A stretch of DNA of 64,000 nucleotides from Alloascoidea africana (Eukaryota > Ascomycota > Alloascoideomycetes > Alloascoideales > Alloascoideaceae), in assembly GCA_030581615.1 (NCBI GenBank), contig JAKTTT010000009.1, positions 124,001 to 188,000 of the forward strand, given 5' to 3'. Shown in pieces: positions 3,262 to 64,000 of this stretch; the first letter of the stretch is position 1; the number at the start of each line of letters is the position of its first letter. Below the pieces are notes generated by a model. It had not been told where the DNA came from, made no database searches, and worked only from the letters and a program-made list of their open reading frames with translations. A program made the translations under genes and the position numbers.

Positions 3262-4452
3262 TTATACAGCAACAGCAGCCCTTGCTGTCCTCCTTTGATT
3301 TATTTTTTTCTTCAACCCTATAAGTTTGTAGATGAGCATAATCATCAAAATTTCAACCTGTTCTTTAAACATAAACAGTAGACCCTGGACAACAAAGCCT
3401 TTGCTTAATTGAGGACCGATACCTTTGAACAAGCCTGGGATTCCTTCAGTTTTGTAGAGATAGACTAATGCCTGGATAAAAGAGTTGAAATAGACAGGTT
3501 TACCGTCCAGCAAGACAGGTTTGCCATCGACGAGTTTCATATGATGATGGTGAAGGGGGTGTTCTTCTGTGGTTGGTTGCTTTTCCTCCTCTTTTACTAT
3601 TATTACACTAGATGATGAGACTGATGCAGAGGGCTCTTGCTCTTGCTCTTGCTCTTGCTCTTCCGATGATGATGAAGTTGCTAGATATTCTTCTTCGTAA
3701 TGGGCACCTGATTTTGACTGAACCATCACTTTGGAAACAATCAAAGGCTGTGTTGCAATGGTTGCTAAACTCTTGGAAAGAGCGCCAAGAAGAAAGTTTT
3801 CCTTTGCGTTTAGGTGTTGTTTGTTGGGGAATAACAAGGTTTTTAAACGTTCGAATGAGCCATATGTTATGGAAGGATTGACAGTAAGGACAAAGCCTGC
3901 TTTCAAGCCTCTCCACAAGCCGATGATTCCTTCCTCGCCAACGACCTCACGGGCGGTGTCGATAAGGCCTTTTCTACCATCGCCTTCCTGGGTTTGCTGG
4001 CGGGTTGTGACGACGGCGACGGGGATGGTGAACATCTGGGCAAGAGCGCCCGCAAGAGCCCCAAGAATCAGTTCTACCACAGTCGAGTTTTGTGCATTTT
4101 TTGAGTCTTTGCCGCGTTTGAGATGAGATGCATAGAAGCCACGGATCAAGGAATACCAGTAGAAATATGCAAAGTTGGTTGAGGCGTTTCCAATCAGGCA
4201 GCCGGCAAGGCCGCTGTACAGGCCGGCAAGGCCATCGATTCTGTAGATTTTCTTGATTGCATCCAGGGTGCCGTGGTAGAAATGCTCTTCGTGGAGATGG
4301 GCAGGTTTCTTTTTGGGCTGGAGCTGGATACGGGTTTTGACAACGTCCAGCGGATAGATGACGGCGTTGGCCAGGGTTGCTGCCAGGGCGCCCGCGACCG
4401 CCTTGTTCCAAGGAGACAGAGTCAGAGGTTGCTGCTTCGAGGCTACGGACAT
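3262..4452 (-). CDS. ANT1: Peroxisomal adenine nucleotide (ATP/AMP) carrier, Ant1/Pmp47-like
   Basis: A single-exon, 396-aa mitochondrial-carrier-family protein. Repeat 1 has the full signature YPLDVVKTR (about residue 35); repeats 2 and 3 have the altered forms IPVAVVTTRQQT and TQPLIVSK that are typical of peroxisomal Ant1. The blocks NPSITYGSF and VVQGLLFMF also match Ant1. It imports ATP into peroxisomes for fatty-acid activation. I chose the ATG at 4452 (MSVASKQQPLTLSPW), because the 19 residues upstream of it look like leader. An insertion at about residues 265-335, between TM5 and TM6, is not usual: Ser, then EQEQEQEQE from a CTCTTG hexamer repeat, then a His patch. It makes the protein about 70 residues longer than the S. 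cerevisiae one. It is divergently transcribed from the Mis18-like gene. Confidence 0.9.
   Translation of the reverse strand: MSVASKQQPLTLSPWNKAVAGALAATLANAVIYPLDVVKTRIQLQPKKKPAHLHEEHFYHGTLDAIKKIYRIDGLAGLYSGLAGCLIGNASTNFAYFYWYSLIRGFYASHLKRGKDSKNAQNSTVVELILGALAGALAQMFTIPVAVVTTRQQTQEGDGRKGLIDTAREVVGEEGIIGLWRGLKAGFVLTVNPSITYGSFERLKTLLFPNKQHLNAKENFLLGALSKSLATIATQPLIVSKVMVQSKSGAHYEEEYLATSSSSEEQEQEQEQEPSASVSSSSVIIVKEEEKQPTTEEHPLHHHHMKLVDGKPVLLDGKPVYFNSFIQALVYLYKTEGIPGLFKGIGPQLSKGFVVQGLLFMFKEQVEILMIMLIYKLIGLKKKINQRRTARAAVAV
3636..3661. repeat. In-frame hexanucleotide repeat in ANT1
   Basis: About four copies of CTCTTG encode alternating Glu-Gln on the minus strand, inside the loop before the last carrier helix. 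Confidence 0.85.
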
Positions 4453-4965: not shown

Positions 4966-5030
4966 TTGTGAGCTGTGAGCTGTGAGCTGGGCGCCGTGAG
5001 CTGGGCGCCGTGAGCTATGAGCTGTGAGCT
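4966..5030. repeat. Tandem GTGAGCT/GGGCGCCGTGAGCT repeat
   Basis: A run of seven-base GTGAGCT units mixed with a longer GGGCGCCGTGAGCT unit in the GC-rich promoter island. Confidence 0.85.
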
Positions 5031-5069
5031 GGCGGCCAGGCTCTGCCAGGCCGAGGAACAGAATCGAGT

Positions 5070-5106
5070 CGCTTTTCGCTTTTCGCTTTTCGCTTTTCGC
5101 TTTTCG
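5070..5106. repeat. Tandem GCTTTTC repeat
   Basis: About five perfect seven-base units in the 5' flank of the Mis18-like gene. Confidence 0.9.
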
Positions 5107-5194
5107 TCTGGGGTCGCTGCGAAACGATGGGGCGTGCTGCTCCGGGAGTTTGCGCCCCCAGGTTCCGGGAACAGCACCCCGTCCCGTCTCACTT

Positions 5195-5227
5195 TGGCTT
5201 TTTGGGCTTTTTGGGCTTTTTGGGCTC
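5195..5227. repeat. Tandem GGGCTTTTT repeat
   Basis: Three to four nine-base units, ending about 40 bp before the chosen start codon of the Mis18-like gene. Confidence 0.9.
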
Positions 5228-5267
5228 CAGGGCGGCAAGGGTGAGCATCTCGAGACCAGACTGGACC

Positions 5268-6020
5268 ATGAGCACGGGCAAAGACGAGGAGAACGGCAAC
5301 GCAAAGCCCCGGCTGGCCATCTTCCAGTGCTCCGGATGCTTCAAAACAATTGGCAACTCGAGGGCCTGGCTGGGCTCCAACAAACACCTCAACGCCATCT
5401 GTCTGCAAAGCGTGGAGCAATCCGATGGCGAGCCAGTGGTGCAAAAAGGTTCAAAGCTAAGATCCTCTTCCAGAGGCACCGATTTCGGGGCTGCCTACTA
5501 TGATCTTTCCTGTCTCAAGTGTAAAACCTCGCTGGGAAGGTGGTTCATGACCACCCCTCCACATTTGGATAACGCTCGAGAGTGCTATGTTTTATTCGCC
5601 AGAAGGATACGAACCTATTTCGTTGGCTCGGGCGAGCCCACAGTGGAGGATGTTCTCCATATAGTCCCCGATATAAACGTCTTGAACCCTACATCCGAGG
5701 ATTTGGCCCAGCGCTTGGCAATGCTGGAGGCCATGACCATCCATATCCACGAACAACTCTATGACTTGTCTACCCGAATCTCAGAGATGACGACACAGTT
5801 ACCGAAAGAAATAGGTCCGGTGATAAGGTCCGAGCTGAAAACAAAGTCCACCTACGCTTCAATTGAACGCCAACTGGAAACTATCAGAGCAAAAATTACT
5901 GGAGAGAAACCAGATAATGCTAAAAGCGATAAGAATTATCCTAATGATGATAGCGAAATGCCAGACCTTGTTGAAACCCCAAAGCCGGTTGAACCTGCCA
6001 AAACAACTACAAATCCATGA
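5268..6020 (+). CDS. Mis18-like centromere protein (Yippee-fold zinc domain plus coiled coil)
   Basis: A single-exon 250-aa protein. Residues 18-31 read IFQCSGCFKTIGNS and residues 80-96 read LSCLKCKTSLGRWFMTT, so the two CxxC pairs (C21/C24 and C82/C85), the (I/L)G(D/N)S motif and the LGR-x3-T-T motif of the Mis18 domain are all in order. After this come LD..R..F...RI..Y.VG (about 100-120), as in fission-yeast and animal Mis18, and then a heptad-like helix (about 155-200), as in Mis18 C-termini. The tail is acidic and Pro-rich. In known systems Mis18 licenses CENP-A loading at centromeres. The ATG at 5268 (MSTGKDEE) is preferred, since the in-frame upstream ATG lies in the repeat-rich leader. 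The alternative is a divergent Yippee protein, but the LGR block and coiled coil favour Mis18. Confidence 0.8.
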   Translation: MSTGKDEENGNAKPRLAIFQCSGCFKTIGNSRAWLGSNKHLNAICLQSVEQSDGEPVVQKGSKLRSSSRGTDFGAAYYDLSCLKCKTSLGRWFMTTPPHLDNARECYVLFARRIRTYFVGSGEPTVEDVLHIVPDINVLNPTSEDLAQRLAMLEAMTIHIHEQLYDLSTRISEMTTQLPKEIGPVIRSELKTKSTYASIERQLETIRAKITGEKPDNAKSDKNYPNDDSEMPDLVETPKPVEPAKTTTNP

Positions 6021-51699: not shown

Positions 51700-54438
51700 T
51701 CATGAAACCAGTCCTGATTGAGAACCCCATGTAACAACGTCGTTTGCGCTCTCCAATTGGAGAAACACGGAGTCGACCCTTTTCTGTTTGAATGAAGTGG
51801 TCGATTTTCTTCCATGATGGTGAGAGTGACGTCCCCGTCCGTTTGGATCAAGAGACTTGTGAATAAACTCAAGAGTCTCAAACTCTTTCCTCTCGGAATC
51901 TGGTATGACCATAATGCTAGGGGAAGAAATGTAGGTCTGAGTCTGGGCATATGCATTTGGTAGTCCTTTTGAATTCAACAGTTTATCAGCAAGGTAATGA
52001 AGCCAAAGTATGTTTGTCTGTGGACAATACGATGACCAGTCGGTACAATCAGAATAGGAAATAGATGACGATGAAGACAGTGAAGAAATGCTTGGAGGAG
52101 AAGAAAGAATAGAAGAGGCACAAGAGCCACTGGAAACAGAAGAAAGGGATTTGGAAAAAACCGGAGACGCAGCAGAATCTCGAGGAGCCGAGTGAGTGTA
52201 TTGATTGAAATTGGGGCTCTGTTTAAAAGATTGAGGTGTCACAGGAGAGGGAACTGGCTGTTGATGAGCTTTTGATCGGTTACCATTGACAAGATCTCTC
52301 ATCATTCGATACACCTCATATTGGTAATCTCCTTTCCCACGAAAGAAATCTGGGTGGTCGAGTCCAGTAAATACTGTTCTACCAGCAATACTAACACGGG
52401 CCAAATTGTAATCAATCAGCGTTACATTCACGTCGTCGTCATCATTCTCTGTAGAGATGATAACTTTCCCCCATTGCAAATCTCGATGCTCAAAATTTAG
52501 TTTAGTCTCTGCAGCTGCAAGCGCTTTTGCAGTTTTCCAAAAAATCTGGTTTGCTTGTTTATATGAGACAACCCTAAAGTGCTCCAGGTCAATACCCTCG
52601 TAGTTCATGACAATAATGCCATACAGTTGTTCTGGACCATAAAAATCTGGTCTATACTTCTTTGAACCGTGCTTAGACTGATACTGATCCCAGCATTCAA
52701 CCAGCTGTTGAGGAAAGTAACCTTTGACGACCCGTACTTCCTTAATGGTGGCAAAGCCATCAAGTTGTCTCACCGACTTTGAGATTGTGACATCTCGAAT
52801 AATGGTTTCAATGGGGATTTGATCAAATTTCTCATTCCCAAAGGGGACAATCTTGACAACTTTAGAGCATTCCACTCCATTGGGATCCTGCGCAATGAAT
52901 ACCTCGCTGAATCTAGCCTCGTTTAGCTTGCTGAGCTTGAAGGAGGCACCAAAAGTCGAGCGTGTATACTCGTCAAAGTTTTCAACAGCGGCAGAACTAC
53001 TAAACTTTAAGAGCTCCTGCAAAGAGAGCTCTTCGTGCTGTTCCATAGACAGATATTCGCTAGGTGATGGAATTGAATAACTATCAAAGCTAGGAGAAAG
53101 GTTGTCTAGTGAAATCAAAGAGGTACTGGCCCGAAGCTTGTTGTGCAACTTTTCTCTTGATGAATTGACCGGAAGCGGTCTTGAAATCATGATGCGTTTG
53201 TCAACTGTACTGGACTTTAAAGACGAATTACTGGGAGCGTTTCGAAGAGTGTACATTTCATGCATTTTTGGTGATTGGTTCCCAGAGACTGAAAGATTTC
53301 TGCTCATCCGGAAGGGAGCCAGCATCTGAATAGACCGACGCACCAGCGGCATTTTCGAGGAAAATTTGGAGGGCTCGCTGCTTTTCTTAGGGCTTGTGGA
53401 GGGCTCGGAGGTATCTTTTGAAATTATGGAGAAAAGGCTTCGAGAAGATATTGAAGTTCGGAGCTTGTTCGATTTCCAGTATGAATCTGATCTCTTGTGC
53501 GATTGTCTGAAAGGTGACATCCTTTTGCTATTGTTTTCATCCGGCTTGGAAATATCATGAAGTTGAACAACCTGGCCGCTAGTGATTATTGAATCTTGTT
53601 TTGCTGTTTCAACATTAATTATAGGGCCAGAAATGGTATACTTGTTCACCTTTTGCTTTCTTCTTGGCACTGCTGCTTGAATATTAGAAAAGTAAGAAGT
53701 CTGGGGTGTTGCATTGATGCCCTTTGCAGGATCGTTTGGACGAACAGAGGTTTTGATGTTGAAAACATGAGAGTTGACCTGAGAAAGAGCCGGTCTATTC
53801 ATTTCTGCAGGATGCTGATCCGCGAAAGGTGCTTTTGAGACCATTTCAGTTTGGTCATGAGAAAATGTAGTTCTGTCGAATGAGCCATTAGTAGATATGA
53901 CGGTAGTTCGATCTCCCAGAAAGCCGCTCAGTCCAGATGTTTTTCCTGTGCTTCTTTTCAACGACGTCGGTGTTGAGCCATTAGTAGCACTCTCATTCGT
54001 ATTTGAAACAGTGGGGTCGTGAGTGCTTCTTGGAGAGTTGGTCGAGTGAGCAGTTGAATTGAAAGCATTCGAGACGGTATTAATGATTGTCCTAGCAGAG
54101 CTAGAAGACGCAGATGACTCGATTGAGAAAGATGAAGCAATTGAAGTTGCCGATTCCGGTCGAATGAACTTGTGCTTTCGCTGTGACCGGTGCTGTGAAG
54201 GCGACCTGTTCTCGAACCCGCTGCCGCTCTTGGAGCCCTTGCTTTGATGATGGCGATATGTTGTGTTCTTTTTCACAGTGCCAATATCGGACCTCGAGGG
54301 GGCATAGACGTCATTGCCATTGTCCTCACTCGCCAAACATGGGCTGCTGTTTGTCGACTCTGCTAGTGAGGAAGGAGCAAACGCGCCCCGAGAAACTATC
54401 TGCGTGTAGCTTCGTGGCTCGCTACACATCTGGGACAT
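51700..54438 (-). CDS. ALK1: Haspin-type histone H3 Thr3 kinase
   Basis: A single-exon 912-aa protein from the ATG at 54438 (MSQMCSEPRSYTQ). The first 500 residues are Ser/Thr-rich and disordered. The kinase core begins near residue 505 (FSEVFIAQD), has the lysine in SKVVKIVPFG, the haspin helix block IRDVTISKSVRQLDGFA, catalytic HRDLQWGKV (about 649), and LIDYNLAR (about 669) in place of DFG, as in haspins, then FRGKGDYQYEVYRMM. A Ser-rich insertion of roughly 90 residues (about 710-800) splits the C-lobe before WLHYLADKLL. Haspin phosphorylates H3 Thr3 at inner centromeres in mitosis to recruit the chromosomal passenger complex; Alk1 and Alk2 are the S. cerevisiae members. Confidence 0.92.
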   Translation of the reverse strand: MSQMCSEPRSYTQIVSRGAFAPSSLAESTNSSPCLASEDNGNDVYAPSRSDIGTVKKNTTYRHHQSKGSKSGSGFENRSPSQHRSQRKHKFIRPESATSIASSFSIESSASSSSARTIINTVSNAFNSTAHSTNSPRSTHDPTVSNTNESATNGSTPTSLKRSTGKTSGLSGFLGDRTTVISTNGSFDRTTFSHDQTEMVSKAPFADQHPAEMNRPALSQVNSHVFNIKTSVRPNDPAKGINATPQTSYFSNIQAAVPRRKQKVNKYTISGPIINVETAKQDSIITSGQVVQLHDISKPDENNSKRMSPFRQSHKRSDSYWKSNKLRTSISSRSLFSIISKDTSEPSTSPKKSSEPSKFSSKMPLVRRSIQMLAPFRMSRNLSVSGNQSPKMHEMYTLRNAPSNSSLKSSTVDKRIMISRPLPVNSSREKLHNKLRASTSLISLDNLSPSFDSYSIPSPSEYLSMEQHEELSLQELLKFSSSAAVENFDEYTRSTFGASFKLSKLNEARFSEVFIAQDPNGVECSKVVKIVPFGNEKFDQIPIETIIRDVTISKSVRQLDGFATIKEVRVVKGYFPQQLVECWDQYQSKHGSKKYRPDFYGPEQLYGIIVMNYEGIDLEHFRVVSYKQANQIFWKTAKALAAAETKLNFEHRDLQWGKVIISTENDDDDVNVTLIDYNLARVSIAGRTVFTGLDHPDFFRGKGDYQYEVYRMMRDLVNGNRSKAHQQPVPSPVTPQSFKQSPNFNQYTHSAPRDSAASPVFSKSLSSVSSGSCASSILSSPPSISSLSSSSSISYSDCTDWSSYCPQTNILWLHYLADKLLNSKGLPNAYAQTQTYISSPSIMVIPDSERKEFETLEFIHKSLDPNGRGRHSHHHGRKSTTSFKQKRVDSVFLQLESANDVVTWGSQSGLVS

Positions 54439-57400
54439 GGCGAAGAAAGAAGAATACTGGCAATAGGACCAGGGCCGAAGGGGAGAGGGAGCAGGCAGTC
54501 TTAAATACCCCCAAATATGGTTTGCTCGATCCGTGTAAACAGCTCCCGTTTCCAGAATCAGGCTTCTTTCTCTCTTCTGGCGCTGCAACTGCAACTGCAG
54601 ATGCAGTCGAAGATTATACGCTTAAAAATAGAGAAATTAGAAATTATGCGCTCGAGAAGGCAGAGCTCCGAAAAGAGGGCGGGTTGCCGGCGGTTGGAAC
54701 TTTCGTCTATGCTTCGCGGGCGAGGATTTCGCTCGTCTGCTCTTCTCGCGGGCGTGGCGGTGGCCGATGGACCTTGATCTGTGTTTTGGTTGCTCATTCT
54801 GGGACATGATGGCAGGAATCCTGACGGAAGTTGGGTTTGAGTTACAGTTTGAGCAGAACGCGATAGTCCTGCCAACCTTAGCTGGATCGAAGCTCGAAAG
54901 GGGATACTGATTAAAACCAAGGTGACCTCTTTGACGGGATGGCTTCATAAATTAAACTATAGTTCCCATTTGGCCAAATATCAATAAACAGTATCGTTGT
55001 CTACATCAGAGCAATCCACTACGCTAACTTCAACATTCCTTGCAAAGTTGGGGCACCACAATAAAGAGAGCAGTATTCAAGCTCGCACAACAGCTAGATC
55101 TCGTCATTTCTTCCCCCTTAGAACATATAGTGAGACAATGAAGTAACAAAATTACATTACCCTTTCACAAACAAACAAAATCTAGAGTTCTCTGCTAATT
55201 AGGTTTTACACACACACCCAGCTGATAAGCCAGTATTTTGGTCCGACTCTCAATACCTTTCATCTAGACCCTGGGAACTCTTGTTAGTTGCACTGCTTAA
55301 ATTTTATCAAAGAAATGCAAGGCCTACGATAACAGGGGTTATGAAGCTCTTGTGGGCTGGTTATGATGAAAATTTTGCTATGTTGTTGTGGAAAAGCTCT
55401 GCATCGTGTTGGAGCTCATTTTAATGGTGTCCCGACCATAGCACAGCCGCACCGTAATCTTGAAGGCATTTGCCACTATCATTTCTCAAAAAAGAAGTAA
55501 TCAAAGGCCATGGTTAATGCGATCGGCAAGGTATTCTTAGAAAATTTACTTATGCTTGGGCACTTGAGCATAGCAAAAGGGAAAAGAAATAGAAACGATA
55601 TTAAATAATATGACCAGGGCTTGAGTTTTAACCGTTATAGCTTAAAATCATAGTCATGGAGAAAGGTCGGATAATGAGGGCAGTTGCTAGTTGGTTAGCG
55701 GAGTAGCTACAGATTACCAAATTCCAATTGATATACGAAGATGTCAGATGAAGTAAATGTAATGTGTACAGAAGTTATCTTTCTTCACCAACTATGCATC
55801 GGTGATAAACAGCGAAGAGGAAACGTCTAGGCAACAACATTGAAATTGTCTCTGGCTAATCTCTTTACTTACAGGGGTCCACCTCCTCGAAGACAAAAAC
55901 CATACCGCGCAAACGCACAAGTCTTGCGGTGAAATTTGTACTAGCAGTAGATCGACAAGTATGTTGGAAGGTCCATTACTTGATACTACCTGTTTCGTCT
56001 TCTTTTTTTCTTCGCGGCATTGTTGTTCTACTCAAGAAGAGTCTTGTCAGCTTAATTAAAGCAAACCATTTCATCCCACGATGCCCAAATAAAATTAAAC
56101 GTCGGCTTGGAAACAATGCTGCTAGGCTAGCATATAGTGATATTATACGACGCTTTGATAATTAAACCCCTTGGAGAATGTCAGCCTGCCTAGTAACGGC
56201 TTTGGTGTTGGTTTAGCTAGGGTCTAGATAAACCACAGGCAGAACTTCTACTTATTGCCACAGTTTTTGTCCTGTGCTCAGTTTATTCTTTATCGATTCA
56301 AAAGATTTGGCAGCTTGTACAGAACTGAAATTTGTGTTGTTTACAAGTAAATAATAGAATTCAGTAGCCAAGTCGACCTGACCATCAAAAACTTGTTTGC
56401 ATTTGAAAAATTGATTAGAACCCCTCATATCATCAGTTTTGTCCTGACTATAATTAGGACATGATTGTTCTACAGATAACGAGCTATTGAAAATTCTCAA
56501 ACTGTTAGCACTATATCAATTTTTGTAGTGTCTTGAAAAGCAGTAGCATTTCTCTGGACGTGGCACTTTTAAGAATACTGGGATGCTCTATTAGGATTTG
56601 CAAAGAATAATGTCTATGCTCTACACTGCCAAAAGGGAGATCACTGCTCCTTGGAGTCTTTCTATCTTTTCTTTTTCAAGGATTTAACGTCTAAACTCTT
56701 GTTTAGTATGCTCAAAATTTGGTACATTACTCAGTAGCATTATAGTAGCTACTGGTGGAGTACGATGGAGCTAAAGAAAAACTTGGAAACTTTTATAAAA
56801 ATGAAAATATCATTGTTTAAATGTAACTGTTGCCCCTCCCGGTCTGCATCATTTTTGTTCTATATTTTACTTATTGTCTAATGTGAATCAAGAATCAAGA
56901 AATTTTAAAAGGCTCGTATTACCGTGTATAGCTTTTTTCTCATATGATATTCATCCGGATCAACTAAAAAATGAAAATGGACCCTGGACGGGGTGTACTT
57001 AACATGAAGGTGTCACTGGCACAACTATGCCAATCGTCTTGGATCTAAACCAAAGCGTTTTTAAAACCAGTTGCAATTCCCGGTCAATTTCAATTATAAA
57101 TCAACAGACAAAGCACACTGCCGTTCTTCTGCTACGCTGAGAGCATTTGAAAGACCGGTGCTGAACCATTAGATCCGTGGTGAAGCATATCACTAGGATC
57201 TCGGGATCATAGGTTTATCAATTGAGGGACAATTTATTAGTTTAGTTATACTTACGAGTTAGCAGATCAATTTAAATGGAATTGGAATTTTCGCTCAACC
57301 TTTCCCACATGGTTCCTGGCTCTCATTTTGACTTTGCGTTAAAAACCTCTTGTCATTTGCTACTTCATGCATCTTCAATTGACGCCACTTGTTCAGAGTA

Positions 57401-57800
57401 GATTAAAGATGTCTCAACCCGTAATCGAATCTACAAAATCCTTGGAAATGGCCCAGTATAGCAAATTCTTCGTCTTGTTCCTTTCATTAACTATCCCCAG
57501 GAGAAGACCAAATTGAAAGAGTACCAGTAGCACTTCTCGCTAGGATCTAGTTTAATTCGCACATTGGTAAATTTACTTTTCAAAGACCTTGAATTCTGCA
57601 AACGCAAGTAGTGAAGAGCTATAAACCCGACTTAACACTGCTTTCTCTAGCACAATAGCAAATGAATTTAGTAAAGTCTCTTTCTTTGGTCGAATTAGTT
57701 GGAATCAGCCTTGACATATAGACTATGACAATTGAATTGGACTATATACAGGGTTAGAGGGTCTAAAGATGAAACGGATCAACTAACAAGGATTATAAAA

Positions 57801-57874
57801 TAAGAATGCATGTTCATAGTCACCGAATAGAGACTGTGTTTAGTTAAATTTAAGAATGCATGTTCGTAGCCACC
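57801..57874. repeat. 24-bp direct repeat pair, 50-bp period
   Basis: TAAGAATGCATGTTC-x-TAG-x-CACC occurs at 57801-57824 and 57851-57874 with two differences in 24 bases, inside the gene desert. Confidence 0.85.
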
Positions 57875-58023
57875 ACTTAGGACTGCTAGTCCTAAAATTC
57901 ATGTTCTTCTCAACATTCAAGCCCGTAATGCTAAGACTTTAACAATAGCCTCTTAATTCAATTTCTAGCCATTCTTTAAGCGTGTATAAAACAAACACTC
58001 TGTCACGCGACACGGCACGAGAA

Positions 58024-58046
58024 ACCGGCTTGGTACTCCAACCGGT
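58024..58046. repeat. Inverted repeat / hairpin
   Basis: ACCGG and TTGG arms face CCAA and CCGGT around a TACT loop with one unpaired base. It stands alone in the desert; no T-run follows, so not a Pol III terminator. Confidence 0.6.
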
Positions 58047-61000
58047 AGAACGTTGCAATATCAACATCTGATACAATCTACATGTTTTAGATTCTAACCA
58101 TTTTCCACTGCTGAACTGAATGAAACTATATTTTGAGCTTCTGCGATTTTGTCACTTTGTGTTCAAACTATGACCTGTGGTGACCGGAGATAGTCTAGGA
58201 AGATAATTATGTATGAAGACATACAGAATGAAAAACTGAAGGAAAGAACTGTCTCCAATGAATAAATTGTAATGGCAAATTATATGTCCAAAATCTAGTC
58301 TCAATCTGTGAGAGGGCAAGAAATAAAAAGAACTTTTTAATTCTAAGAGCTTATATTTTGCATCATTTCACCATTTTCAGCAAAGTTGGATATCCCAGTG
58401 GTCTTATCAATGGATTAGACTAACCTTTCTCTTAACAATAGATGTTTACTCAACCCAATTCTGAAAGCAAGGCAGGGTCTTCTGGTACTATTGATGATAG
58501 ATTTCCACTTGGCGTTACAAAATCCCTGGTTTAGATTTAGGTCATCGGCCAATACTAAGGCACAGGCAATGTAATTTTGGTCTCATGGAAGCTGAGGAAA
58601 CTAATGCCGGGGATATCGATTTCTACTATTTAATGTTGCGGGTGAATAAAAAACAAAACGCTTGGGATGAGAGCATAGTCGTTCTCATAGGCCGTGACTT
58701 TTGTCATTATCCTTCAACAACCTTATTCCGACTCAGCCAACCCCTTTAGTTCTATACATAGGAAAAGAATCGAGTCTAATTTCCAAGAGTTTATCTTTAA
58801 AGGTGGTCGCATTCAAGCCTGTCTTCAAAGGGAAATAAGTAAACTTCTCCTTGTAACGGCGAAGGAGTTATCAAAAGTTTTGGACCACGACGTGAGAACG
58901 GTTAAATCTGAGCTCTTTAACGAAAGGCGCATTTAGTTACAAAACGATGTAACTAAACTATAACAAATTTAGCATTGACAATTGAATCAATAAAGTGAAC
59001 CTTCTAGTTTTTCTTACATACCCGAGATTAACTAAGGTTGGTTATTGTTCAACCGTTTCTCGTTTATTCTGGGTGATGTAGTTGTTCGTTTTCCAACAAA
59101 CATAGAAATTGAAATGCTCATTTGGGGGCAACTCCTATTAGTTACAAACGTCATATTTCTTTTAGTGGATAATAAAGGATACCGCCCTGTCTTTGCTTTT
59201 TCTAGATCGCCATACATTCTCGTTGGCGTAGAATGGCGAGAGTTACAGAACGAAACCAAATGCTCGAGTGTGCTGCTACTTAAAATCTAAGAGTCATAGC
59301 AAATATTGCTGTTTTAGTGTCTTTCAGCGTTTGCCTTTGAGAGTTTTTAATTGTGTGGGGAATATAAAATCTTTAGATACTTCATTTCAAAACAAGTTTG
59401 TTTCTAAATTTAAATGCAAAAGGTGGTTAACTGGGAGAACATTTTGTCAAGTACGGGATGGAGGCTAGCTTAGTTAAAGATGCTCTTTGATGAGAGAATC
59501 AATCAATTTTTAGTGAAAAATCACAATAAAATCGAATGAAGGCAATGCCCTTAAGTCTGCTGTTGAGCATGCTCTTGGTTTATTATCTTCTATTAGTCAC
59601 AAAGGGAGTTAATTCGGTTTAACCTATTACCCGAAAACGTGTTTGTTAACAAAAATAACATACCAAAGGCCTAAAACTTCATTGTGGTATATCGCAGTTT
59701 GGCCTCACCGTTAGAATCGTTTTACACTCAAAAAGTGGAAGAAATCTTTTCGCATTCAGATTCTCGGTAATAACAGAACAATAAAAGCACATACTGTAAT
59801 TTAAGAAACACATCTGACGAGATCCTTGATTTTTCACCATCGACGCGAAAAGAATGAGCTGCGACGATGGTGCTGTTCATGCCCTGCCAACGAATCTCCA
59901 ACTAAGACCGATCAGAAGCAATAACAAAATCTCATTCATTCTAATGGCCATGATTCTTTAAAAACCATTTTTCAACTGAAAAGGCAAAAGCACAGATTGA
60001 TAAAGTTTTCAAATTGAAGCTGTCATGTACTAAATCTCGTTGTGAGGTTGACATGTGGGTTGTAGCAGAGCAGCAAGAGAAAGATTAGAAATAAAAGTGT
60101 TCGCTACCCAAGCCTACACATATTATTTCATAGCCACCTAGTTTATCTCAGTATATATTCTGCTATTGATGTTTGATTTAACTGAAATTGCTGGGTTTTC
60201 AAATAGTGGAAAACGTTCACATTCTGTTCTTTGATAGTATGCAAAGAAGAATGAGCTGTCTAGGCGATATTTACCTGGAAAACTTATGTCCTCCATAGCT
60301 CTCTGCTGGCTTTCCCATCGAAACTAGTATGATTTTTCTCTTGTGCAAAAACCGGAAGGTATGGGAATGAAAAAAATGGACTTGAAAGTGTTCATTGTCT
60401 TAGATCTGCAACAATCTCTACCACAAAAGTAAAAAGCTTTGTATTTAACATGATCAATTTGTTTCTTCATACGCCTCTATCCTCACGCTATTAGATTGAA
60501 TCATTAAAAACCTTTTATGCTTTGCTAGACTGAGAAGAAGTTATATTTACTGTCTCTTTTGGGGTTTACTCTGTGCTTTCCTTTCACTGATCTCAATAGT
60601 AACTGGTGGCATTGACCTTCAAGTAATTCTTCATTTTGTCTTCATTTTATTTTCTGTAGACTTTCTGAATTTAAGTGTAACTGATTAGGAAGAAAGAAAA
60701 AAGAGATTTGGAAAGAATGGGGCAGGTTCTACTGTATTTAGTTGTTCCAACAGCTTCTGGGACACTAGGCTTTGCTCACATCTATGCAGCTATTTTGTAT
60801 ATACCTTAGCTATTGGTATCATGTTCTAGTTTTAAATAAACTATAAGATTAGATCAATAGATCTTACCTGCAAAACCATTATTCTACAATAATGATTGAA
60901 CTTTTGCTGTGAGGAGTGATTGACATTCAGCAATCTGAGCAAGTCCATAAATTTAAAATGAGAGATCAACTGAACTGAGAGTGATAGCCCAACAACTAAC

Positions 61001-62861
61001 AGAACTTATTCCATCAGTAAAGATATCCAAAGAATGATTATTCAACGTTTCATCAATCCTTGGATTTTCCTCCCACTTCTCTTTTAAACTAGATTATTTT
61101 AGCGAATTCAAAGGTATAGCACAACCTTGCTCTTATGCCGGGACTGCTATTCTAGAATGGGAGAAAAGTTATACAGACTGATTATATGACTTTGTTAATA
61201 TTATAAAACTTACAGATCCTCTTCTGCTCCTTAAGGGCAGTATAACTACTCATCTCCAGCTTTATGACCGCAAGAAAACACTGAAAAATAGGAAGGCAAA
61301 AAAAGAGAAAACCTGATAGAAAGGCGAAGCGTAGACGCTTTGCATTTTGGAACTGTTAGAGCGAAAAGAAGTAAACAAGGATACATTCAGACAGGTCCTT
61401 CCCCACGTGTGTCAGATGTTGCCTAGAGAGTCCGATAGAAGTTTTGCCTTTAGCCGACACATGAAAGCCCAAATGGTCATACGCTTTCAATCATCACAAA
61501 AAGATTCACAGATAGATGACAGAAGAAAGAGGTTTCTGGTTTGTTCTTAGATAGAACGCATAACGTTGTTGTCAGACCAGTGCATTAATGCTGATATGGG
61601 CTTTATACTCAACTCTATTCGTCCATCAATTATGAAATTGAGATACTCTTCCGAAAAATCTTCACTATTATTGTTTCTCGCGCCTGAATGCTAGTTTGGC
61701 ACATATACCCCCTTATTTCTGGCTTCTACCAGGTCTCGATAAATTTTGAAAAGCCTGTGATGCACAGACTTGGTAAGAAATCCATTCATTGTACTGGCCT
61801 CAGTCTTCGTTTGCTTGCATTTGTAATTTACCATTTTATTCTCACCTCTTTACTGCCCCTTTTCCTTTTGCTATTGTCCAAATTGGCCAGGATAAATTGG
61901 TTTCCGAGAATAGTTCATGTTGCAATGCAGAGGGACTTTACTTTTCAAAAAAACGGGCCCCAGTGATATTGAGAAGAAAAAAACAGAGCTGTAGGTTCCA
62001 TAGATTGATATATGGATGCTTCTTTTTTCGGAACATTAGGTCTGGATAACCTTGAACATTTAAAAGATTTTCTTGTTCTTGTATACATTTTTCCAAGGAT
62101 ACTCTCAGAATACTAGATCCCAACTATTGTATACAAGCTTCCCATTCTTAGAAGATAAGCAAAATTCAATCACGGATAGTTTTATTACATGAGACCCCAT
62201 AGATACATGAGTCAGATTTCAATTGGTTTCGAAAATAGGGTTCACTACTTCTTTATCCATATGACTGGACATGCCATATCTGACTGATTCTTTGACCACT
62301 TTTCTTAAAGCTATGTACGTTCTACCTTACTACCTTTAGTTCTACCAACTTGGACATTAATATTAGACAAAAACCATTCATTTCTGAAGCTAGCATCAAC
62401 AGATTCAAACATCTTTTATATTCAGTTAAGCTGTTCGTAACACAATCTATATATTCTATAACTACATGTATTATTAGTGCTAGTAATCTCAACAGATTTT
62501 GATAACAGTTTCTTATCGATTTAGGCTTCTAACTTAACAGATAACTATTGAGACTGGATTCATCGCTATATATTCATCACGTCTGCTACACATCATCAAA
62601 CCGCTTTATTATTCACTGATTGTTGCCCATCCAAAGGTAATGAAACCATATGGAACAAGATACATACCATTTTTCCTTTGATCTTTTACAATCACTACAT
62701 AATACACTGTTATTAAACGCGGTACAGTATCATGCAACGTGCTATGCCACTGATTTTGGTTCAGCTTTAGGGATTGGGTTGCTTCTCTTCCTAACAGTGT
62801 CGGTTCACGATAATGGGGAAAGGGGTAGGAATCTCTACAAATGAGAGACTTATTCTAGAAA

Positions 62862-62867
62862 CACGTG
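62862..62867. promoter_or_regulatory. CACGTG (Pho4-type) site upstream of PHO84
   Basis: CACGTG about 450 bp before the PHO84 ATG. Pho4 binds this core and drives PHO84 under phosphate starvation in S. cerevisiae. Only one core was seen, and the flanks (ACACGTGCG) are not the ideal high-affinity GGG form. Confidence 0.5.
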
Positions 62868-63169
62868 CGAGAGAAGATAAAGAGGACGCCAGCAGCAGGT
62901 TCTCTGTGCCTACGGTGTGTGTATATACTTTTTAATCTGCCTCGTGCGTTTTCTGTCTGGATAGAGCAGACCCCAGTCCTGACATGCGCCTAGACTGTTT
63001 GTTTTAATCGCACTGTAATTATTTCGATAGTTTTTAGTCCATTGATCCATTAGTGGTGCCGCAACCTCGGGGAAAGCATCAATTAAGCGGGATGTAAAGC
63101 ATGAAATACTTTCAAAATGACTGGACTCTGAGCTCCATTATTCAAGAAACCAGTACAACTGGTGACAAG

Positions 63170-63178
63170 TATATAAAG
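63170..63178 (+). promoter_or_regulatory. TATA box of PHO84
   Basis: TATATAAAG about 140 bp before the ATG, a good TATA element as expected for a strongly inducible promoter. Confidence 0.6.
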
Positions 63179-63313
63179 AATATCTAATCCTCTGAGTCCT
63201 ACAATACATATTCAGGTCCAGATTCCATCCTTTAGCCACCTACACAAGCTAAAAGGACACACTCTCTGGCTTTCATCTCAATTTAGTAGAAATCCACTAA
63301 ATATCAGCATACA

Positions 63314-64000
63314 ATGTCTTCAGGAGGTGCAGCTGGTGTCAAAACAAGTGGCGGAAATGCCGCTTTTCACAACTTTGTCAACGACTTTTCACACATTGAT
63401 GATCCAATAGAACGAAGGAGACTTGCTTTGGAAAAAATCGACAGTGCAAAGTTTGGTTGGTATCATATCCGTGCAATTACCGTTGGCGGAATTGGATTTC
63501 TCACTGATTCGTACGACATTTTTGCAATCAATATTGCCGTTACCATGTTGGGATATGTCTACTGGGGAGGATCCGTTGGCGGTCCTGGTGTTCCAAGTAC
63601 TTCAGAAGGGAATTTGCTCAAGGTTTCTACCTCTGTTGGAACTGTTATCGGCCAGATTTCTTTTGGTACCTTGGCAGACATTATTGGAAGGAAGAAAATT
63701 TATGGAACAGAGCTTATCATCATCATCATTGCGACTATAGGACAAACATTAATGGGACAATCTCCAGGTCTGAATTTTGTTGCACTTTTAACGTTCTGGC
63801 GTATTATAATGGGAATTGGAATTGGCGGTGACTATCCATTATCTTCGATTATCACCTCAGAGTTTGCAACAACGAAATGGAGAGGTGCCATTATGGGCGC
63901 CGTTTTCGCCAATCAAGGATGGGGACAATTATTTGGAGGCATTGTTGCGCTTGTATGTGTAGTTGGATGGAAAGATTCTTTGATAGATGCAAACAACGTT
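63314..64000 (+). CDS. PHO84: High-affinity phosphate:H+ symporter, N-terminal part (runs off window)
   Basis: ATG at 63314 (MSSGGAAGVKTSGGNAAFHNF); 229 codons are present and the frame is open at the window end. RRRLALEKIDSAKFGWYHIR leads into TM1 (AITVGGIGFLTDSYDIFAIN), followed by the MFS loop GTLADIIGRKKIYG and the phosphate-symporter signature GIGIGGDYPLSS, then TKWRGAIMGAVFANQGWGQ. These are diagnostic for Pho84-type plasma-membrane proton-phosphate symporters of the major facilitator superfamily. A CACGTG and a TATA box upstream fit control by phosphate supply. Confidence 0.95.
   Translation, partial: MSSGGAAGVKTSGGNAAFHNFVNDFSHIDDPIERRRLALEKIDSAKFGWYHIRAITVGGIGFLTDSYDIFAINIAVTMLGYVYWGGSVGGPGVPSTSEGNLLKVSTSVGTVIGQISFGTLADIIGRKKIYGTELIIIIIATIGQTLMGQSPGLNFVALLTFWRIIMGIGIGGDYPLSSIITSEFATTKWRGAIMGAVFANQGWGQLFGGIVALVCVVGWKDSLIDANNV

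Follow-up and report, generated by a model that had tools for sequence, protein, structure and literature searches.

A Mis18-like gene in the window

A single gene, designated P0001, and the role of its product are the subject of this study; the gene lies on the forward strand of a 64,000-nucleotide stretch of contig JAKTTT010000009.1 (C9), which is referred to as the window throughout and whose positions are used for all coordinates given without a contig name. An earlier note on this DNA had described the gene product as a Mis18-like centromere-licensing protein of a budding yeast. The following features were found at this locus.

5268..6020, forward strand: Mis18-like gene P0001, 250 amino acids in a single open frame (translation; PF03226 match of 69.9 bits)
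5319..5645, forward strand: Mis18/Yippee-like zinc domain, residues 18-126 (Pfam span; PDB phmmer matches; domain model with fold matches to Mis18)
5328..5339, forward strand: first CxxC motif, C21/C24, zinc ligands by homology (translation; aligned with Mis18 and Yippee rows)
5511..5522, forward strand: second CxxC motif, C82/C85, zinc ligands by homology (translation; alignment)
5694..5900, forward strand: C-terminal predicted helical region, residues 143-211, with putative oligomerisation helices (low-confidence single-sequence model; opening motif shared by four Mis18 rows)

The reading frame runs through 250 codons without an internal stop, and stop codons interrupt the reverse strand in the matching register. 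Codon scores in positions 5001-6000 reach 0.29 per codon, similar to those of the known genes of the window, with P0001 itself outside the training set. Seven CTG codons are present, at least three of them at conserved hydrophobic sites. A second in-frame ATG upstream, at position 5127, would add 47 residues; the conserved part of the protein begins at about residue 15 and can do without this longer start.

Most of the sequence marks that had been read from the translation were recovered as described. The two CxxC pairs (C21xxC24 and C82xxC85) are 58 residues apart, counted from residue 24 to residue 82, the first pair is followed by an IGNS turn (I28-G29-N30-S31) and the second by the element LGR-x3-TT (L89-G90-R91-x3-T95-T96). 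Of the proposed LD..R..F block, L100-D101-x2-R104 is in place, while the phenylalanine fits loosely (LDNARECYVLF), F110 lying six residues past R104. The C-terminal coiled coil survives as helices predicted at residues 143-176, 183-192 and 195-211, in a single-sequence prediction of low confidence (blocks with a predicted local distance difference test score, pLDDT, of about 44-56). The helical region opens with the motif P-x3-(D/E)-(L/I)-x2-R-(L/I)-x2-L-E, which is common to four aligned Mis18 proteins.

P0001 is a member of the Mis18 family

The Pfam profile PF03226 (Yippee-Mis18) matches residues 18-126 of P0001 with 69.9 bits (cut-off 26.6; E 2.5e-19). A phmmer search of the PDB (E<=10) with P0001 listed eight sequences, three of them below 0.01, with human Mis18-alpha at 1.7e-12 and two entries for Schizosaccharomyces pombe Mis18 at 1.0e-11 and 1.4e-11. 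Together with the match to P0002, a homologue from a second source described below, these sequence matches lie far beyond chance.

PF03226 takes in both Yippee and Mis18, and the fold is common to YPEL5 and cereblon, so that the zinc domain could in principle belong to a Yippee (YPEL/Moh1-type) or cereblon-type protein and not to a Mis18 protein. The Yippees of the same genome provide a direct comparison. A genome-wide scan with PF03226 gave matches at eight places; three are Mis18-type genes (on C9 in the window, C41 and C42), and the other five rows represent, by eye, four Yippees (on C1, C64, C65 and, twice, on C77) whose exons are split, whereas each of the three Mis18-type genes lies in one open frame. 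S. cerevisiae, which we take to have one Yippee (Moh1), compares with four intron-split Yippee genes here (L007-L010). In a ten-row tree that included these four Yippees, each entered as two joined exons without the stretch between them, the split between the Yippee and the Mis18 rows was supported at 100/100. Over the domain, P0001 is 14-19% identical to the Yippees, with which it has the Pfam family and the fold in common, compared with 51% to P0002, 42% to P0003, 32% to human Mis18-alpha, 29% to S. pombe Mis18 and 26% to P0004, the proteins P0003 and P0004 being its paralogues. On the tree and these identities we reject a Yippee identity for P0001.

With the zinc-domain model as query (pLDDT 73, the highest of five models that were built from two sequences and span 39 to 73), the 14 best Foldseek rows were all Mis18 chains, with YPEL5 and cereblon behind them. 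In a structure comparison by Z-score, the best cereblon row was placed 1.3 to 1.9 Z units under four Mis18 rows; no YPEL5 chain was found among the 50 matches listed in that comparison, a result that excludes nothing. The root-mean-square deviation (rmsd) to the domain model was lower for cereblon (2.5-2.8 Å) than for Mis18 (3.5-3.7 Å) in the top rows. A cereblon-type identity is therefore weaker in sequence and in the Foldseek scores, though not in rmsd, and we give almost no credence to the idea that P0001 is either a Yippee or a cereblon-type protein. The earlier note had proposed a profile search and a structure model against Mis18 and Yippee folds, and had named a better match to Yippee or cereblon as evidence against its assignment; Mis18 comes first by sequence and by Foldseek, and the Yippees stand apart. 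Our data thus support P0001 as a Mis18-family protein that is neither Yippee nor cereblon.

Three paralogues and a partly duplicated segment

The genome under study (G000; 23.18 Mb in 138 contigs) carries three Mis18 paralogues: P0001 on C9, P0003 (254 amino acids) on C41 and P0004 (455 amino acids) on C42, with PF03226 scores of 69.9, 77.5 and 79.6 bits, respectively. P0004 is nearest to S. pombe Mis18, with a domain identity of 38%. The earlier note was right about the family and overlooked that P0001 is one of three paralogues, among which P0004 is more S. pombe-like.

A protein search with P0001 found one homologue, P0002 (E 1.2e-36; one match among 357 candidates). A profile search with the full alignment (A1) found no homologue among 7997 scored sequences, for which we suspect the low-complexity tail of P0004, and the profile of the trimmed alignment (A2) again found only P0002 (one of 2451 candidates). 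Statements about distribution are limited because the protein searches gave this one homologue.

In the tree computed with the helical region included, P0001 and P0002 grouped at 100/99, as a derived Mis18 subgroup. Their shared stem measures 1.74 changes per column, the branch of P0001 itself 0.73 and that of P0003 0.3. Direct sisterhood of P0001 and P0003 was rejected by the approximately unbiased (AU) test (p 0.0021), as was that of P0002 and P0003 (p 0.0024). A clade of P0001, P0002 and P0003 was recovered weakly (69/56), and sisterhood of P0003 and P0004 was not rejected (AU p 0.46). Because P0001 groups with P0002, the duplication that separated P0001 from P0003 would already have taken place when the lineage of the P0002 source split off.

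The 54 kb of C9 around P0001 were compared by BLAST with 30 kb around each paralogue. One neighbouring gene of the window enters here.

3262..4452, reverse strand: mitochondrial-carrier-type gene (by eye), upstream of P0001, with a paralogue near P0003 on C41

The carrier paralogue on C41 (60% over 236 amino acids plus 78% over 46 amino acids) is located some 6 kb upstream of P0003. Carrier and Mis18 genes have the same relative orientation on both contigs, with another frame between them on C41. The regions C9:120917-130017 and C41:72385-86533 thus constitute a partly duplicated segment in which the order of carrier and Mis18 gene is kept; BLAST reported one more match between the two neighbourhoods, which is short and weak. 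The 30 kb around P0004 had no match in the 54 kb around P0001 besides the Mis18 genes themselves. Further upstream in both the C9 and the C41 segments, a small secreted-type gene was noticed by eye only and was not reported by BLAST. A duplication of a segment or of the genome, older than the separation from the P0002 source, probably gave rise to the P0001 and P0003 lines. The duplicated segment hints at a genome duplication, and the doubled CENP-A, CENP-C and Chd1-type genes (see below) and the four Yippees fit one. Other old duplications of yeast genomes have reportedly been described in the Dipodascales and Alloascoideales; no title to that effect was among the papers that a literature search listed.

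A gene doubled in this way might be an unneeded copy in decay. The partly duplicated neighbourhood on C41 would suit such a fate for P0001, as would its greater change (0.73 in addition to the shared stem, against 0.3 for P0003). Yet the frame is intact over its full length, its codon score is on par with the known genes of the window, and the subgroup has been kept in a second source in the form of P0002. We consider decay very improbable.

P0001 retains the family frame and differs at interface positions

The functional residues of Mis18 have been studied in S. pombe, where V22, I31, Y114 and L116 are dimer residues, Y74A/Y90A/T105A/S107K was tested as a pocket mutant, the allele mis18-262 is G117D and the protein is a homotetramer (PMC4818781). 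In our alignment, the dimer positions are occupied in P0001 by I18, T27, Y117 and V119, that is, one residue is identical, two are conservative replacements and the I31 position is changed. The four pocket positions read Y, F, V and F, with one of the four identical, and G120 matches the position of G117. P0004 has V, S, Y and A at the dimer positions, F, Y, T and S at the pocket positions and a glycine at the G117 position. Judged from these alignments, the family frame is preserved in P0001, with changes at the sites that serve pairing and binding in S. pombe Mis18.

P0001 resembles S. pombe Mis18 (PDB 5hj0, 5j6p) in its zinc domain with two CxxC motifs, its predicted helical C-terminus and its equivalents of V22, Y114 and G117; domains of Scm3 and RbAp48 type also occur in both systems. 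It differs in the spacing of the CxxC pairs (58 residues, against 51 in S. pombe), in its low domain identity (29%, against 38% for P0004) and in the changed positions I31, Y90, T105 and S107. Moreover, a homotetramer in S. pombe contrasts with three paralogues here. Human Mis18-alpha/beta (PDB 7sfz, 9a8g) provides the best PDB sequence match and the best fold matches, and both genomes carry more than one Mis18 gene. A correspondence of the yeast paralogues to human alpha and beta has no support in the tree, where the yeast rows, four in number, cluster weakly (79/73) and the human branch is long.

Changes of this kind could also mean that P0001, though descended as a Mis18 paralogue, moved from CENP-A loading to another role in chromatin. 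The substituted pocket and dimer positions, the long stem that it has in common with P0002 and the presence of P0003 and P0004, which could hold the ancestral role, are in keeping with such a move. There is also a precedent in human FAM72, a group of proteins with a Mis18-type domain for which joint action with RPA following DNA damage is reported (PMC11377751). Against this stand the zinc sites and the equivalents of Y114 and G117 that P0001 has kept, the conservation of the region past the zinc domain, and a second source in which the subgroup persists, the domain identity being 51%. We judge a change of role to be unlikely, albeit less so than decay of the gene.

Centromere genes of the genome and a likely role in CENP-A loading

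The genome contains one Scm3 locus (72.9 bits; 68.2 bits as protein; Pfam). Two CENP-A loci, L016 (C27) and L017 (C44), were picked out by eye among the Histone matches from a loop 1 longer than in H3, the element RWQS and the common C-terminus RIRGAWGGLG. The C27 gene has a 75-bp yeast-type intron and yields a protein of 167 amino acids, the C44 gene appears to carry an intron as well, and both products start with MARLS. Two CENP-C loci, L054 (C108) and L055 (C4), match the full 85-position profile with 89.1 and 76.9 bits; this profile also gave sub-cut-off matches in 8 of 14 control genomes, and both matches here lie far above the cut-off. The RbAp48-type H4-binding domain (CAF1C_H4-bd) is present at four loci. 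For Ndc10, a single sub-threshold match was obtained (14 bits, E 0.156; cut-off 26.3), the positive control being silent.

The Chromo profile gave six matches. The five above the cut-off represent, by eye, two Chd1-type proteins and an eEF3-type ABC protein, and one weak piece lies on C19. No HP1 or Clr4 protein was seen among these matches, a search that exon-split genes can escape. An Argonaute/Piwi gene, L056 (C28:100635-101600; 259.8 bits), occurs once in this genome, for which the search showed no HP1/Clr4 chromodomain.

CENP-A is deposited by Scm3/HJURP, whose recruitment in both S. pombe and human is the task of the Mis18 complex (PMC4043117, PMC7614391). The genome of this yeast encodes Mis18-family paralogues, Scm3, CENP-A, CENP-C and RbAp48-type proteins, and since the genes for Mis18, Scm3, CENP-A, CENP-C and H4-binding WD40 proteins are all present, Mis18-based CENP-A loading is the most economical reading. 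We consider it likely that P0001 is one subunit within a diversified Mis18 complex and that this complex delivers Scm3-CENP-A to centromeres. Its zinc domain would pair with a second Mis18 domain, and its C-terminal predicted helices would form a higher oligomer. With an RbAp48/Mis16-type WD40 protein, the complex would bring Scm3-CENP-A-H4 to centromeres marked by CENP-C, where this delivery would refill CENP-A. That P0001 enters a complex is inferred here, as are its partners, the timing and its placement at centromeres. Changed interface residues and the existence of paralogues suggest that P0001 is a specialised, faster-changing subunit pairing with another Mis18 protein, and not the generic one; P0004 is the most S. 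pombe-like of the three.

Several points weigh against this role. The changed I31, Y90, T105 and S107 positions may mean that P0001 pairs only with a partner or has drifted in function. The full-length single-sequence model of P0001 is poor (38.5), the five domain models vary widely in quality, and cereblon has the lower rmsd. The H4-binding locus on C3 resembles, by eye, the ribosome-biogenesis protein Rrb1, so that fewer of the four loci may be Mis16 candidates, and S. cerevisiae, a yeast without Mis18, is described as having Hat2 as its Mis16 orthologue (PMC4043117). No match to the SANTA domain of M18BP1 was found in the genome, where silent controls mean that absence is not shown. For S. 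pombe, PMC4043117 states that no M18BP1 has been identified and that Eic1 (Mis19) has been proposed to do its work.

A more far-reaching reading, which we offer tentatively and rate as somewhat doubtful, is that a doubled genome kept and specialised a whole CENP-A-loading module, consisting of a generic Mis18, a duplicate pair with one fast-evolving member, two CENP-A, two CENP-C and one Scm3. The three Mis18 proteins would then form obligate hetero-oligomers that evolved independently of, and in parallel with, human Mis18-alpha/beta, and might load two CENP-A forms at regional centromeres that lack CBF3 and HP1-type heterochromatin.

Possible regional centromeres and an ORF-free stretch

Regional centromeres in this yeast are plausible. 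The epigenetic regional centromeres of the earlier note can be inferred only, from the presence of Scm3, CENP-A and CENP-C together with an Ndc10 match that is sub-threshold and has no positive control.

Positions 54,949-63,313 of the window form a stretch of 8.4 kb without an ATG-initiated open reading frame (ORF) of 100 amino acids, with a GC content of 37%. No other gap of this kind in the 138 kb examined is as long, the next one measuring 4.3 kb. Best-frame codon scores in it average -0.14 (shuffled, -0.22), with maxima of 0.03 and 0.08. Of the 59 frames listed for positions 54,000-63,500, ten were chosen and gave no Pfam match, Rfam gave no match at gathering score in the window, and the repeats found in the stretch are short and imperfect. 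A Haspin kinase gene (51700-54438, reverse strand; 229.5 bits) lies about 500 bases away. The stretch is a candidate regional centromere or merely a long intergenic region.

Host lineage and significance

As the earlier note held, the host is probably a budding yeast. The Tra1 protein encoded in the window matches PDB chains with 4231, 3539 and 2881 bits, which we take to be those of Komagataella, S. cerevisiae and another fungus, respectively. SHE3, which we assume to be a Saccharomycotina protein, scores 63 bits in the window, and the intron signals are of yeast type (GTATGT..TACTAA..TTTTAG). A universal large-subunit (LSU) primer pattern had no exact match in the genome, the exact pattern only having been searched. 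To our knowledge, budding yeasts are generally held to be free of Mis18. The genomes of Alloascoideales average 24.15 Mb (three genomes), the highest value among 12 yeast orders (PMC12322030). That S. cerevisiae has no Mis18, as the earlier note had it, is stated in PMC4043117, according to which this yeast retains Scm3. Our literature search, which most subscription papers lay outside, found nothing on Mis18 in Saccharomycotina, Lipomyces or Yarrowia, and we make no claim that it is unreported; the word Mis18 is absent from the kinetochore survey PMC5579357.

P0001 is a further member of the Mis18 family, notable as one of three paralogues and for the doubled inner-kinetochore genes that accompany them. 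If the host belongs to the Saccharomycotina and the genes were acquired by descent, Mis18 would have been lost on the Saccharomyces side after the lineages split, and not as early as the origin of the budding yeasts. Such an organism would allow Mis18 and Scm3 to be separated genetically, and its Mis18 paralogues bear on the question of whether hetero-oligomers evolved more than once.
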